Source: Acetobacterium sp. KB-1 (GTDB lineage Bacteria; Bacillota; Clostridia; Eubacteriales; Eubacteriaceae). Taken from it: a DNA stretch of 64,000 nt. The position numbers and the translations under genes are program-made. Below are positions 19,389 through 23,204 of the stretch, in pieces; position 1 is the stretch's first letter, and every line of letters starts with the position of its first letter. Under the pieces are notes generated by a model. That model saw nothing but the letters and a program-made list of their open reading frames with translations, searched no databases and had not been told where the DNA came from. The stretch covers positions 3,147,176-3,211,175 of the forward strand of contig NZ_CP030040.1 in NCBI RefSeq assembly GCF_003260995.1. The letters run 5' to 3'.

Positions 19389-19503
19389 TGGAAAAATAAG
19401 GAGACATCCTGGCTTAGTGACTAAAATAGGGAACGTGGGGTATCTAATAGACAAACCCTATTGTTAAAATGATTGAAAATAGTTGCTGAAAGGGTCATGG
19501 AAT

Positions 19504-21246
19504 ATGAATAATATCCGTAAACAAAAGATCGACAAAGTGACGGGATTTATCAGAACGTTATTTAGCCACCTGAAAAGGCAAACTGTCAGAATGAAAAATA
19601 ATGGCGCTGGTTACCAGGATCTTAACGACTTAAAAAATCACTTGTTTTACATAATCACTTTTTATTTTATTTTGTTGGGCCCGGTACTCTTTTTTTATGG
19701 CGCCTATTTATTTTATCAAGAAGGCGAGTATGTAACCGCTACTCTTGAATTTTGTCTCTATTTTGTCGCGGTTTTTGTTCTGTTGAACTGGAAAATTAAT
19801 CTTCGCTTTAAAAAACTGTTCTTCCTGCTGATTTGTTATTTTGTCAGTGTGCTGGTACTTTTTGTGGCTGGACCAATGGGGGCCGGAATGGTGTGTGTAA
19901 CAGTGGTACTGGTTTTATCGGGATCTTTGCTTGACAGACGTTGGGTGCTGAAATTCATTACTTTTAATCTGTTTACTTTTGTACTCATCACTATTTTGTT
20001 GGATCGCGGTTTTTTTAATGAATTTGCCATTGCCGATTACGGTTCGATCTGGCTGATCGTTGCCGTCAGCAGCCAGGTTCTTGGCATTGGTTTATTGTTT
20101 ATTATTCAAACAATCGATGATGAGCTGGACAAACAGTCAAAAATTGTAGCCAAAGCTAAAGAGAAGCTGGAAATCAGTGAGCAGAAATACCGCTATTTAA
20201 GCTATCATGATCACTTGACCGGAGTTTATAATCGACTGTTTTGGGAAGAAGAGCAAAAACGGATTGGTAGCGAGAATCAGCTGCCCATCTCAATCATAAT
20301 CGGGGATATCAATGGGATCAAACTAATAAACGATGCATTTGGTCATGAAGCCGGGGATCGGATTATTATAGAAACAGCACGAATTATGAAAAGCTGTTGT
20401 CATGATGATGCGTTGATGGCCAGAACCGGTGGGGATGAATTTAGTATTCTAATGCCAAAAACATCCCGGGAAACGGCTTTAGAACGAATGGATGAAATTA
20501 AAGAGGCGTTTATTTTGCATAATCGCCGGATTTTGAATGAGGCTTTTCATATCAATGTGGCATTGGGATCGGGCACCAAAGAAAAGCCCCATGGCGATTT
20601 GAAGCAAACCATTAAAAGAGCTGAGCTATATATGAATAGCCGTAAGTTACTGGAACAACGAAGCTCCCACAGTACAATTATTTCATCAATCAAGGCGACA
20701 ATGTATGAGAAAAGTCATGAAACGGAGGAACATTCCGAGCGGTTGGCAGCCCTGTCCCGCATGGTTGGTGAAGCCTTAAAGCTGTCGCAGATTGAACTGG
20801 ATCATCTGGAGCTTCTGGCGACCCTTCACGATATTGGCAAGGTGGGAATTGATGATCGGATTTTAGGAAAACCGGGAAAATTGACAGATGAAGAATGGCT
20901 TGAAATGAAAAAGCATCCTGAAATCGGCTACCGGATTGCCGCGGCTTCTCCCGAGCTGGTATCAATCTCAGAGTTTATTCTTAGTCATCATGAGCATTGG
21001 GATGGCAGCGGTTACCCGAAAGGTTTAGCGGGTGAGGCGATTCCCTTACTGTCTCGGATCATTGCCGTGACGGACGCCTATGATGCGATGACGGAAAATC
21101 GTGTTTATCGGAAAGCGATGGATCGCGAAAGTGCGATAGCAGAAATCAAGAACAATGCCGGAACTCAGTTTGATCCTGAGATTGCAAAATTGTTTGCCGG
21201 AATGATGAAACAAACAGAAGAACGTATTATCGGAAGAATTGATTAA
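19504..21246 (+). CDS. Membrane GGDEF / HD-GYP protein
   Basis: 580 aa from ATG 19504, nine nt after AAAGGG. About six membrane helices lie between residues ~40 and 205, followed by a short coiled coil (KIVAKAKEKLEISEQKYRYL). A GGDEF domain follows (RTGGDEFSILM near residue 307), then an HD-GYP domain with HDIGKVGIDDRIL near 441 and HHEHWDGSGYPKGL near 495. Both motifs look intact, so the protein could both make and break c-di-GMP, or the GGDEF part may act as a GTP sensor for the phosphodiesterase. Monocistronic, with a terminator right after the stop. Confidence 0.9.
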   Translation: MNNIRKQKIDKVTGFIRTLFSHLKRQTVRMKNNGAGYQDLNDLKNHLFYIITFYFILLGPVLFFYGAYLFYQEGEYVTATLEFCLYFVAVFVLLNWKINLRFKKLFFLLICYFVSVLVLFVAGPMGAGMVCVTVVLVLSGSLLDRRWVLKFITFNLFTFVLITILLDRGFFNEFAIADYGSIWLIVAVSSQVLGIGLLFIIQTIDDELDKQSKIVAKAKEKLEISEQKYRYLSYHDHLTGVYNRLFWEEEQKRIGSENQLPISIIIGDINGIKLINDAFGHEAGDRIIIETARIMKSCCHDDALMARTGGDEFSILMPKTSRETALERMDEIKEAFILHNRRILNEAFHINVALGSGTKEKPHGDLKQTIKRAELYMNSRKLLEQRSSHSTIISSIKATMYEKSHETEEHSERLAALSRMVGEALKLSQIELDHLELLATLHDIGKVGIDDRILGKPGKLTDEEWLEMKKHPEIGYRIAAASPELVSISEFILSHHEHWDGSGYPKGLAGEAIPLLSRIIAVTDAYDAMTENRVYRKAMDRESAIAEIKNNAGTQFDPEIAKLFAGMMKQTEERIIGRID

Positions 21247-22152: not shown

Positions 22153-22364
22153 AACAACACCTCTCTTTAAGAAATTAATGATCGTATATTTAATACCCAC
22201 AAAGAAGGAGTTTATCAGCCTCTTGCTATAAATATTTGAAAAAACAGAGGGGAGTCCTGTTTCGAAAATAGCAAAATAGACCGGATTGCATATTTACAAA
22301 AGAGTTACAAACGTTTACAATGCAGCTATTTACTTATGACAGAAAGATGATACAATATAATTGA

Positions 22365-22976
22365 ATCAAGGATCAACCAATCCTTTTCCAATTGAATGAC
22401 AGGATCATTAAAAAGTAAATAAGCACTTGACTGAATGATAAGATCAAGGAGAAGATTATCCGATTATAATAATAACTCAGAGATAAGCCTCGAGGATCTG
22501 GTTTTATCGATCATAGACTCTACAATGGAAAAATTCTCATCACTATGAGAATTGGTAAGTACATTGTTAATCACAATCAGATTTATTGGAGATCGGTATT
22601 CACATTATGATACCCACATAAAAAAACTGTGGTCATAATAAAAATAATAGATCAAGGATAGGTAATCGATGCGAGAAGAGAAGATGATTTTCAATTGAAA
22701 TTCAGAGAAACAAAGGGAAAAATTTGGACGAAAGAACAGATTGTTCAGAAATTTATTTCACTTGAAAACCCCCAATGAGCTAGCTGCCAATAGGTAATAG
22801 AAGCGAAAATAAAAAGTAAGATAATCCTCAAACAAGTAGCAGATTTACAATGGGAAAGTGAAGAGGAAGATTTTTGAAAAACAGAAAGGGGTGAGTCCCC
22901 AAAAATGACAGCTGAGATTGCAAGCTGAGGCCGATTCTACATAAATAATTGTGGAATCGGCTTTCAGCTTTTTTGC
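22365..22976 (+). ncRNA. Candidate large structured non-coding RNA (~600 nt)
   Basis: The gap 22153-23204 has no credible coding frame. It begins with a promoter-like TTTACT-N16-TACAAT/TATAAT (about 22330-22360) and ends in a strong intrinsic terminator (AAGCTGA-GGCCGATTC / GAATCGGC-TTTCAGCTTTTTT, 22922-22974). Between them lie many local stems: AAGGAT/ATCCTT (22368-22385), AATGA/TCATT (22395-22409), a 9-bp tetraloop hairpin AATTCTCAT-cact-ATGAGAATT (22532-22553), GGTAT/ATACC (22595-22614), CCACA/TGTGG (22614-22632), and ATTTTT..GGGG/CCCC..AAAAAT (22870-22906). The octamer ATCAAGGA occurs three times. The strand is set by the terminator. The family is not recognised; tmRNA and RNase P RNA features are absent. 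Confidence 0.5.
22922..22974 (+). terminator. Strong terminator closing the non-coding stretch
   Basis: Stem GCCGATTC-TACA / TGTG-GAATCGGC extended by AAGCTGA / TCAGCTT and followed by TTTTTTG. There is no gene upstream on this strand for more than 1.6 kb, so it must end a non-coding transcript. Confidence 0.85.
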
Positions 22977-23204
22977 GAAGGAAATAGAATTCAAGCTTGA
23001 GAATAGAGATAATCACAGGAACTCCTACAATAAAGAGCGAACATCAAGGTGTGAGTTGCTTAAGAATAAAACAAATAAGCACTAAGAATGCATAGAATTC
23101 AAGCACCAAATTTGATATAATTAGCTGAAAATAATCTGGCGTTTATTTAATCGGCGACTGGCAATTAAATGACACAGTAACAAATTGGTGCGAGGAGATT
23201 TAGG

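Follow-up and report, generated by a model that had tools for sequence, protein, structure and literature searches.

The predicted RNA gene and its surroundings

The window analysed here is a 64,000-nt stretch of the genome of Acetobacterium sp. KB-1. It holds a predicted RNA gene whose neighbours are an alpha/beta hydrolase-like gene and a gene for a DUF389 protein, the latter starting 231 nt past the terminator of the unit. The features that we assign to the unit are collected in Table 1; the start, the end and the translation of the RNA are predictions, and the predicted 5' edge of the copies carries the conserved sequence AATCAAAG. The initial annotation had described the gap as free of coding frames, and in 22200-22828 we found no ORF of 40 aa or more beginning with ATG, GTG or TTG. 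The description fails further downstream, where a seven-codon ORF with a Shine-Dalgarno sequence is conserved in the copies read. Three listed ORFs also overlap the 3' end of the RNA (22828-23016 and 22845-22994 on the minus strand, 22951-23085 on the plus strand).

Table 1. Features of the predicted RNA gene, in positions of the window
Feature	Position	Strand	Basis or remark
Private promoter element TACAAACGTTTACA	22306..22319	+	9 bp before the -35 box; putative site for an activator
Promoter TTTACT, 16 bp, TACAAT, with TG before TACAAT	22329..22356	+	consensus scan
Predicted RNA	22364..22974	+	611 nt; start from promoter and conserved 5' edge, end from terminator
P1, 5' strand UCAAGGAUC	22366..22374	+	5' end of the RNA; pairs with 22869-22877; covariation among diverged copies
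Second long-range helix, 5' strand GUAAAU	22415..22420	+	pairs with 22843-22848; consensus fold, 9 orthologs
Local hairpin, 9 bp, CACU loop	22532..22553	+	from sequence
Local hairpin AUUAUGA/UCAUAAU, variable loop	22604..22639	+	consensus fold, 9 orthologs
Second long-range helix, 3' strand AUUUAC	22843..22848	+	consensus fold
P1, 3' strand GAUUUUUGA	22869..22877	+	7 nt upstream of the Shine-Dalgarno sequence; duplex permutation test
Shine-Dalgarno sequence AAAGGGGUGA	22885..22894	+	conserved in the 3' module alignment
Seven-codon ORF MTAEIAS-stop (ATG ACA GCT GAG ATT GCA AGC TGA)	22905..22928	+	positional conservation
Terminator hairpin and T-run	22924..22974	+	scan and consensus fold; stem starts in the last sense codon

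The elements that had been noticed in the gap were mostly recovered. The promoter-like element is present with its TG, but the match to the consensus is weak when taken alone (7 versus 3.9 expected). The terminator consists of a stem at 22927-22964 and a T-run, and the terminator scan gave 1 versus 0.4 expected; the nine-base-pair tetraloop hairpin is present as well. The three copies of ATCAAGGA lie at 22365, 22443 and 22651, but the triple is not conserved, in that only the first is part of the 5' helix and the other two vary among orthologs. The folding energy of the unit has a z of -4.8, with none of 20 shuffles as low in a sample of only 20. By composition and folding alone the window unit would be unremarkable, and its weight comes from comparison: conservation at the same place in other Acetobacterium genomes, together with diverged copies elsewhere, is stronger evidence than either the scans or the folding.

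We found the unit at the same place in eight other Acetobacterium genomes, opposite the hydrolase gene in 8/8 and upstream of the DUF389 gene in 7/8, the contig ending in the eighth. The orthologs of 22364-22974 were aligned across nine genomes. A mobile element was rejected as an explanation, since the orthologs are syntenic and there was no plasmid, phage or viral match: the window copy had none in plasmids or phages, and an exact 29-base pattern of the family had none in viral contigs. The earlier reading as a discrete non-coding RNA gene holds in so far as the unit is a discrete, structured predicted RNA gene that has a promoter and a terminator to itself, whereas "non-coding" in the strict sense is not borne out, with a tiny ORF inside. 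A conserved small ORF in the gap had been named as evidence against such an RNA, and the seven-codon ORF is one; we take it to be one part of the structured RNA and not a replacement for it.

Related copies in the Eubacteriaceae

A BLASTN search with the gap gave matches in 21 of 61 related genomes, including 18 of the 19 of the same genus (the window genome counted), and also recovered further copies in the window genome. A covariance model of the 3' end of the family, built from 75 copies and referred to here as R1, detects five copies in the window genome at E 6.5e-23 or better. Across the order, R1 matches occur in 27/67 genomes, namely in 18/19 of Acetobacterium and in 5/5, 2/2, 1/1 and 1/1 of four other genera of the family. 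Four further genera of the family (0/12 genomes) and four other families (0/27) gave no match, zeros that are unsafe as evidence of absence, as R1 with a cut-off of E ≤ 0.001 fails to detect some true members. In a genus labelled g3, two genomes with no R1 match had a BLASTN match of 35-36 bases, and each proved to carry one family member with a TTTACA/TGnTATAAT promoter, a Shine-Dalgarno sequence, an eight-codon ORF (MISEEVSA, MISEDVSA) and a terminator. R1 missed these members, and the spread therefore extends to at least six genera. Judged by the sequences, this is an RNA family present in at least six genera of one bacterial family, comprising Acetobacterium, Eubacterium and relatives.

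Among the 18 Acetobacterium genomes with any R1 match, 17 have 4-9, a count that includes weak, 3'-module-only or wrong-strand matches, and one fragmented genome has a single match. The copies measured in this genus are 332-1096 nt long. The class-wide search returned 8 of 391 genomes, seven of them in the same family. The eighth match (G277, E 3.4e-4) looks like chance, as does a short BLASTN match in G042, neither having a Shine-Dalgarno sequence, an ORF or a terminator. In a collection of named genomes (257 billion bases), the exact 29-base pattern, which misses some members, was found in 17 stretches, the hosts being Acetobacterium, Eubacterium (E. callanderi, E. barkeri and E. aggregans) and MAGs labelled Eubacteriaceae, Bacillota or Firmicutes. 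The family is also present in A. bakii DSM 8239. We regard the existence of the RNA family itself as well supported by these comparisons.

A promoter element confined to the family

The promoter element TACAAACGTTTACA, which can be read as a direct repeat TTACA-N5-TTACA, was compared across 74 Acetobacterium copies. It has no mismatch in 45 of them, one in 20, two in eight and three in one; its distance to the -10 box is 45 nt in 63 copies, 50 nt in ten and 44 nt in one, and 72 of the 74 match the -10 pattern TGnTA[TC]A. The window genome (3.99 Mb) contains four matches to TACAAACGTTTACA at ≤1 mismatch, all at family promoters (reversed control, 1), and its fifth copy has a weaker version. In the 19 genomes of the genus there are 53 exact matches, and 53/53 lie upstream of a same-strand family match, taken as an R1 match within 1.3 kb downstream with 98 of the 103 R1 hits of the genus used; the reversed control gave 0. 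The sole genus genome without an R1 match, G007, also lacks TACAAACGTTTACA. None of 12 loci in other genera has the exact element; related GTTTAC repeats are in part visible there by eye.

As in sRNA sets of the csRNA/LhrC type, a box is thus shared by several paralogs per genome and by few or no other genes. We infer that one dedicated regulator acts through TACAAACGTTTACA, and it would probably be an activator because of the position of the element. Our search of the neighbouring genes for this regulator returned a Crp-type gene near some copies only.

Predicted fold-back of the 5' end toward the Shine-Dalgarno sequence

The first ~26 nt of the RNA are predicted to pair, at -10 kcal/mol or below in 88 of 90 copies, with a segment that lies ~25-55 nt ahead of the start codon. 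The resulting helix, P1, continues with gaps to about 22389 in the window copy. It is poor in copy D of the window genome (-6.9 kcal/mol) and in one E. barkeri copy (-7.8). RNAalifold, applied to the joined 5' and 3' alignment (86 copies; 54 representatives), gave 0.0 and no structure, and duplex and permutation tests of P1 were used in its place. In 22 divergent copies, the mean duplex energy is -14.6 kcal/mol for cognate versus -9.5 kcal/mol for non-cognate strands, and 0 of 20,000 permutations reach the observed value; in just 11 of the 22 does the cognate strand score best. A broader form of the test over all 86 copies gave -32.2 for cognate versus -26.4 for non-cognate strands. The two partners also change together, as UCAAAGAUC/GAUUUUUGA in many Acetobacterium copies, UCAAACAGU/ACUGUUUGA in L147, UCAAACAG/CUGUUUGA in L153 and ACAGA/UCUGU in L139, with a different extension in L141. 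We consider this predicted fold-back helix well supported.

The nine orthologs of the window RNA have a consensus fold in common, with -93.6 kcal/mol and 149 pairs, eight of which show two-sided changes. Owing to the similarity of the orthologs, covariation contributes only a small term (-1.0), and covariation counts are inflated by the relatedness of the copies. Beside the second long-range helix, ACUUG at 22425-22429 pairs with CAAGU at 22833-22837, and in two Eubacterium copies (L134, L138) other complementary sequences can be seen by eye in the place of this helix. The hairpin at 22532-22553 has two-sided changes at some pairs and is partly missing in two of the nine orthologs.

The interiors of some copies contain further repeated elements. 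Three copies that adjoin ndk-like genes (L055, L062 and L065, in G002, G005 and G011) are predicted RNAs of ~1.1 kb with an extra stretch, in which 3-5 spaced, hairpin-like copies of AGAAGAAAGACCATTCCT (≤4 mismatches) lie mostly ~86 nt apart; five other copies have one or two weaker matches to AGAAGAAAGACCATTCCT. Eubacterium-type interiors (L134, L140, L141) share the motif ACUUAUAGCAUAUAGAGACUUAAG, which occurs twice in L140, and its core GCAUAUAGAGAC was seen by eye in the two g3 copies (L019 and L021) as well.

A seven-codon reading frame that ends in the terminator

The ORF has seven codons in 88 of the 90 counted copies and eight in the other two, a count that is conditional because the searches favoured short frames near a Shine-Dalgarno sequence, and that is inflated by relatedness. 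On a first pass, a frame of this kind was present at 76/76 3' ends, a number that includes L044 and L075, which are not full copies. Outside the 90, one g2 copy has the seven-codon frame MTKESQD (by eye), and the two g3 copies have eight codons. All three stop codons are in use (TAG 38, TGA 36 and TAA 16 over the 90 copies), and a 3-nt insertion preserves the frame in two copies. Among 57 distinct seven-codon ORFs, codon 4 specifies Glu in 51, with both GAA and GAG used, and its third base has an entropy of 0.98 bits versus 0.22 and 0.35 for the other two. When columns were drawn independently, the stop was kept in 86% and inner stops were avoided in 84% of draws. Selection on the seven-codon ORF is, in our view, well supported by these patterns.

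The 57 ORFs encode 39 peptides with the loose consensus M-T-T/S-E-I-x-x, and the 24 ORF pairs that are one base apart divide into 12 synonymous and 12 not. For these two reasons, selection on the peptide sequence would be modest at best, and the first five residues do not appear to be free either. Positions 6 and 7 seem, by eye, to follow the terminator stem. The peptides, of 7-8 aa, are mostly polar or charged, and they differ strongly from genus to genus, those of other genera including MLTEIER, MLTESER, MLTESEN, MKPESEH, MKPESER, MVIEQHC and MQTEPKN.

The ORF ends with its stop codon within the base of the terminator stem, and by this geometry a terminating ribosome would have to open the stem. 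Two-sided changes are kept at 6 of the 12 consensus stem pairs (75 copies). The conserved terminator pattern occurs twice in the window genome, both times in this RNA family; a common terminator was rejected on this ground, despite a mild excess of the terminator 12-mer in the window (11 versus 5.0 expected at ≤2 mismatches). In the window copy, the GGGG of the Shine-Dalgarno sequence pairs with CCCC at 22897-22900 at a predicted probability near 1.

These observations bear on two explanations that centre on the reading frame. In the first, the unit is there to make the heptapeptide: the RNA serves as an mRNA whose regulatory 5' part is very long, and the several, slightly differing heptapeptides of a genome would work as signals or effectors on a receptor of their own. 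This receptor might also be the protein that recognises TACAAACGTTTACA, which would form a feedback loop. Very short peptides are receptor ligands or gene products in PlcR-PapR, Rgg-SHP and microcin C7 (mccA), and such precedents favour a peptide product here, as do the promoter element common to the copies and an ORF kept in every counted copy with a loose consensus and both Glu codons at position 4. The apparent dependence of the last two residues on the stem and differences between genera as strong as those of MTTEILD, MLTEIER, MKPESEH and MVIEQHC argue against it; moreover, a folded domain of hundreds of bases is superfluous for making a peptide, and no gene family accompanies the copies, so that the two closest genes on either side include no candidate for processing or export. 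We regard the peptide as a serious rival, if on the whole a rather improbable one.

The second explanation is a minigene inhibited by fold-back, for which hok-type mRNAs and peptidyl-tRNA drop-off minigenes are the models: pairing of the 5' and 3' ends would close translation, and processing or unfolding would release a minigene that slows growth. Pairing beside the Shine-Dalgarno sequence in nearly all copies, the very short ORF and the presence of several copies fit this scheme. Nevertheless, the Shine-Dalgarno sequence lies outside P1, the peptides are mostly polar or charged, and the copies are kept in place across species, and we find the scheme unlikely.

Reduced relatives of the 3' module exist as well. 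At seven inspected loci with a weak 3'-module-only match, whose promoter and 5' domain were not recognised and which may form one orthologous group, a seven-codon frame is present in three, an ATG without the stop at that place in two and no such frame in two. Such relatives (L044:5044-5178, L152:8819-8948, L094:388-510, L059 and L056) lie directly after another gene, and species differ in whether they have retained or lost the tiny ORF. At L075:5037-5108, a copy appears to have been reduced by deletion, so that the promoter element almost directly abuts the seven-codon ORF; it has no recognisable -10 box, 5' domain or Shine-Dalgarno sequence.

Genomic setting of the copies

Neighbouring genes, as called by an ORF script, were counted for the 75 of 77 hit clusters that have a neighbour. 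The nearest downstream gene is on the same strand in 50/75 and convergent in 25/75, and the downstream genes fall into 26 family/orientation classes, ndk-like, DUF389 and Usp genes among them. Within two genes on either side, the copies have no gene family as a constant companion. A very large cis leader, either an attenuator or a riboswitch, in which translation of the seven codons would prevent the terminator and let transcription enter the next gene, accords with the stop codon inside the terminator stem, with the riboswitch-like closing helix and with the place of the DUF389 gene after the window terminator. The two-thirds of nearest downstream genes on the same strand point the same way, since a cis role for some copies would give such a share. 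A cis leader or riboswitch should, however, lie at a consistent place upstream of a same-strand gene, and the copies have a convergent gene in the remaining third and a multitude of downstream classes. With so many convergent and differing neighbours, a cis leader is therefore unlikely as the general role of the family, and we judge it a very improbable account of the window RNA. Single copies may nonetheless act as a cis leader or as a closed minigene.

One copy lies directly after a TIGR03936-type gene, which is preceded by a TIGR03960-type radical-SAM gene, in Acetobacterium and in genera g5, g8 and g2; the two g3 copies each lie just downstream of a TIGR03936-like gene, and a g9 copy is one opposite-strand gene away. 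These gene assignments were confirmed by NCBIfam in Acetobacterium and g5 and made by sequence likeness elsewhere. The copy that adjoins TIGR03936 probably marks the ancestral locus, the others being later copies.

We also noticed GGDEF/EAL/HD-type signalling genes near many copies (window 19483-21246, L041:5780-6844, L150 and others), filling 37 neighbour slots in one domain-chained cluster. In the window genome, where 48 GGDEF matches exceed the cut-off, 4/5 copies (3/4 loci) are ≤5 kb from a GGDEF match, versus 9.7% of random positions. A link to cyclic-di-GMP, noticed after the fact, is possible. A 440-aa protein (L041:7549-8871) is encoded between two RNA copies, likewise in several other genomes; it has no NCBIfam match, and its homolog in L069 no Pfam match.

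Another observation concerns RNase E/G (PF10150), which among the 67 genomes of the order is absent in 40/40 of the family and in 18/18 of families f3 and f4, and present in 9/9 of families f2 and f5. A TIGR03936-like gene lies just upstream in 3/8 rng loci, which is the place of the ancestral-type RNA copy. A link between the RNA family and the loss of RNase E/G is suggestive only.

Comparison with known RNA classes

Rfam at gathering thresholds gave no match across the whole window, which agrees with the initial suggestion of an unassigned family and sets the RNA apart from ROOL, GOLLD, raiA, 6S, tmRNA and RNase P, the models of which are presumably all in the library. At E ≤ 5 on the gap there were five chance-level matches only, at E ≤ 2 on a Eubacterium copy again only chance-level matches, and for ten relative loci only an L21 leader elsewhere. 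No tRNA or tmRNA was found in the window. OLE (RF01071) was rejected, with no covariance match in the window or in G000; the same search finds OLE in 5 of the 19 genus genomes, with E values between about 1e-134 and 1e-137, and not in the other 14, the window's included. OLE there is a separate locus, one each in G007, G009, G013, G016 and G017 (L189-L191), and four of the five carry the new family too.

OLE forms an operon with an OapA-type membrane protein. The new RNA resembles it in being about 600 nt long and structured and in its occurrence in Firmicutes, some Acetobacterium among them, and differs from it in its multiple copies, private promoter element and tiny ORF; OLE is not known to contain a tiny ORF. 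ROOL and GOLLD are large structured RNAs of a size comparable to the window RNA, unlike which the new family has a tiny ORF, several copies under one promoter element and no Rfam match. An RNA that is purely structural and non-coding, like OLE or ROOL, and has an ORF only by chance would suit the size, the dense folding and the Firmicutes host. Against it stand the retention of the ORF, the use of three stop codons, the in-frame indel, the lack of an Rfam match and the presence of OLE at a locus of its own, mostly in genomes that also carry the new family; we hold this to be highly improbable.

In organisation the family resembles the streptococcal csRNAs (CiaRH) and the LhrC RNAs of Listeria (LisRK), of which a genome is reported to encode several paralogs governed by a single regulator. 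These are short sRNAs, whereas the new family measures 332-1096 nt in Acetobacterium and has a fixed tiny ORF. RNAIII (hld) and SgrS (sgrT) are regulatory RNAs that also carry a small ORF, and here, too, a small ORF is conserved, its translation being predicted and the regulatory action of the RNA putative; unlike theirs, it has only seven (eight) codons, is always at the 3' end and has its stop inside the terminator stem. In hok-type mRNAs and lambda-type minigenes, 5'-3' pairing near the Shine-Dalgarno sequence and a very short frame are found; the new family differs from the hok type in that no hydrophobic toxin is seen and P1 leaves the Shine-Dalgarno sequence outside. A type I toxin mRNA was likewise rejected, as the 7-8 aa peptides are not small hydrophobic membrane peptides. 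A CsrA sponge, suggested by ATCAAGGA, was dropped because the GGA motif is not conserved between copies.

Proposed role of the RNA

Our preferred, though still tentative, explanation is that the window RNA belongs, with four others in its genome, to a family of structured RNAs that the Eubacteriaceae transcribe independently, in which the ORF ties the RNA to the ribosome and the RNA acts in trans. Overall, the most likely description seems to be a set of structured RNAs that are regulated together and each coupled to a translated minigene; the dedicated regulator, the tethering to the ribosome and the action in trans are guesses. A dedicated regulator would turn on all copies together, and the folded domain, as the working part, would present its 3' tail for ribosome binding. 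A ribosome would then translate the seven codons of the tail and leave at the terminator hairpin. The footprint of a ribosome exceeds the 24 nt of the ORF, so that the tail would have room for only a single ribosome at once, at which the RNA would be held or stabilised. The interiors, which vary among the copies, could act on different partners in trans, and opening and closing of P1 could set access to the Shine-Dalgarno sequence. The predicted pairing of the Shine-Dalgarno sequence in the window copy counts against this explanation.

We can also imagine, with less confidence, a self-contained RNA-minigene control system, in which a dedicated factor serves only this family and either the visit of the ribosome, in place of an ordinary protein, is the output or the heptapeptide feeds back on the factor. 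Such a system would couple a large folded domain to obligatory seven-codon translation at the terminator, and we think it somewhat unlikely.

Significance

In the portions available to us of the literature on acetogen transcriptomes and ncRNAs, as well as on large RNAs, minigenes and multi-copy sRNAs, we found no description of this RNA family, nor of any RNA family with such a fixed architecture. The dRNA-seq studies list 69 intergenic TSSs for A. bakii (PMC6239172) and 100 for E. limosum (PMC5651825), and a term search of the main text of the E. limosum Ribo-seq study (PMC6260860) returned no mention of small ORFs or ncRNA.

Acetogens of the genera Acetobacterium and Eubacterium are studied for gas fermentation, and they carry here a multi-copy RNA that has no match in Rfam 15. 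The element TACAAACGTTTACA appears specific enough to fish out the regulator of the set. A large structured RNA with a persistently kept seven-codon ORF would blur the line between coding and non-coding, and may offer a clean, testable case of it.
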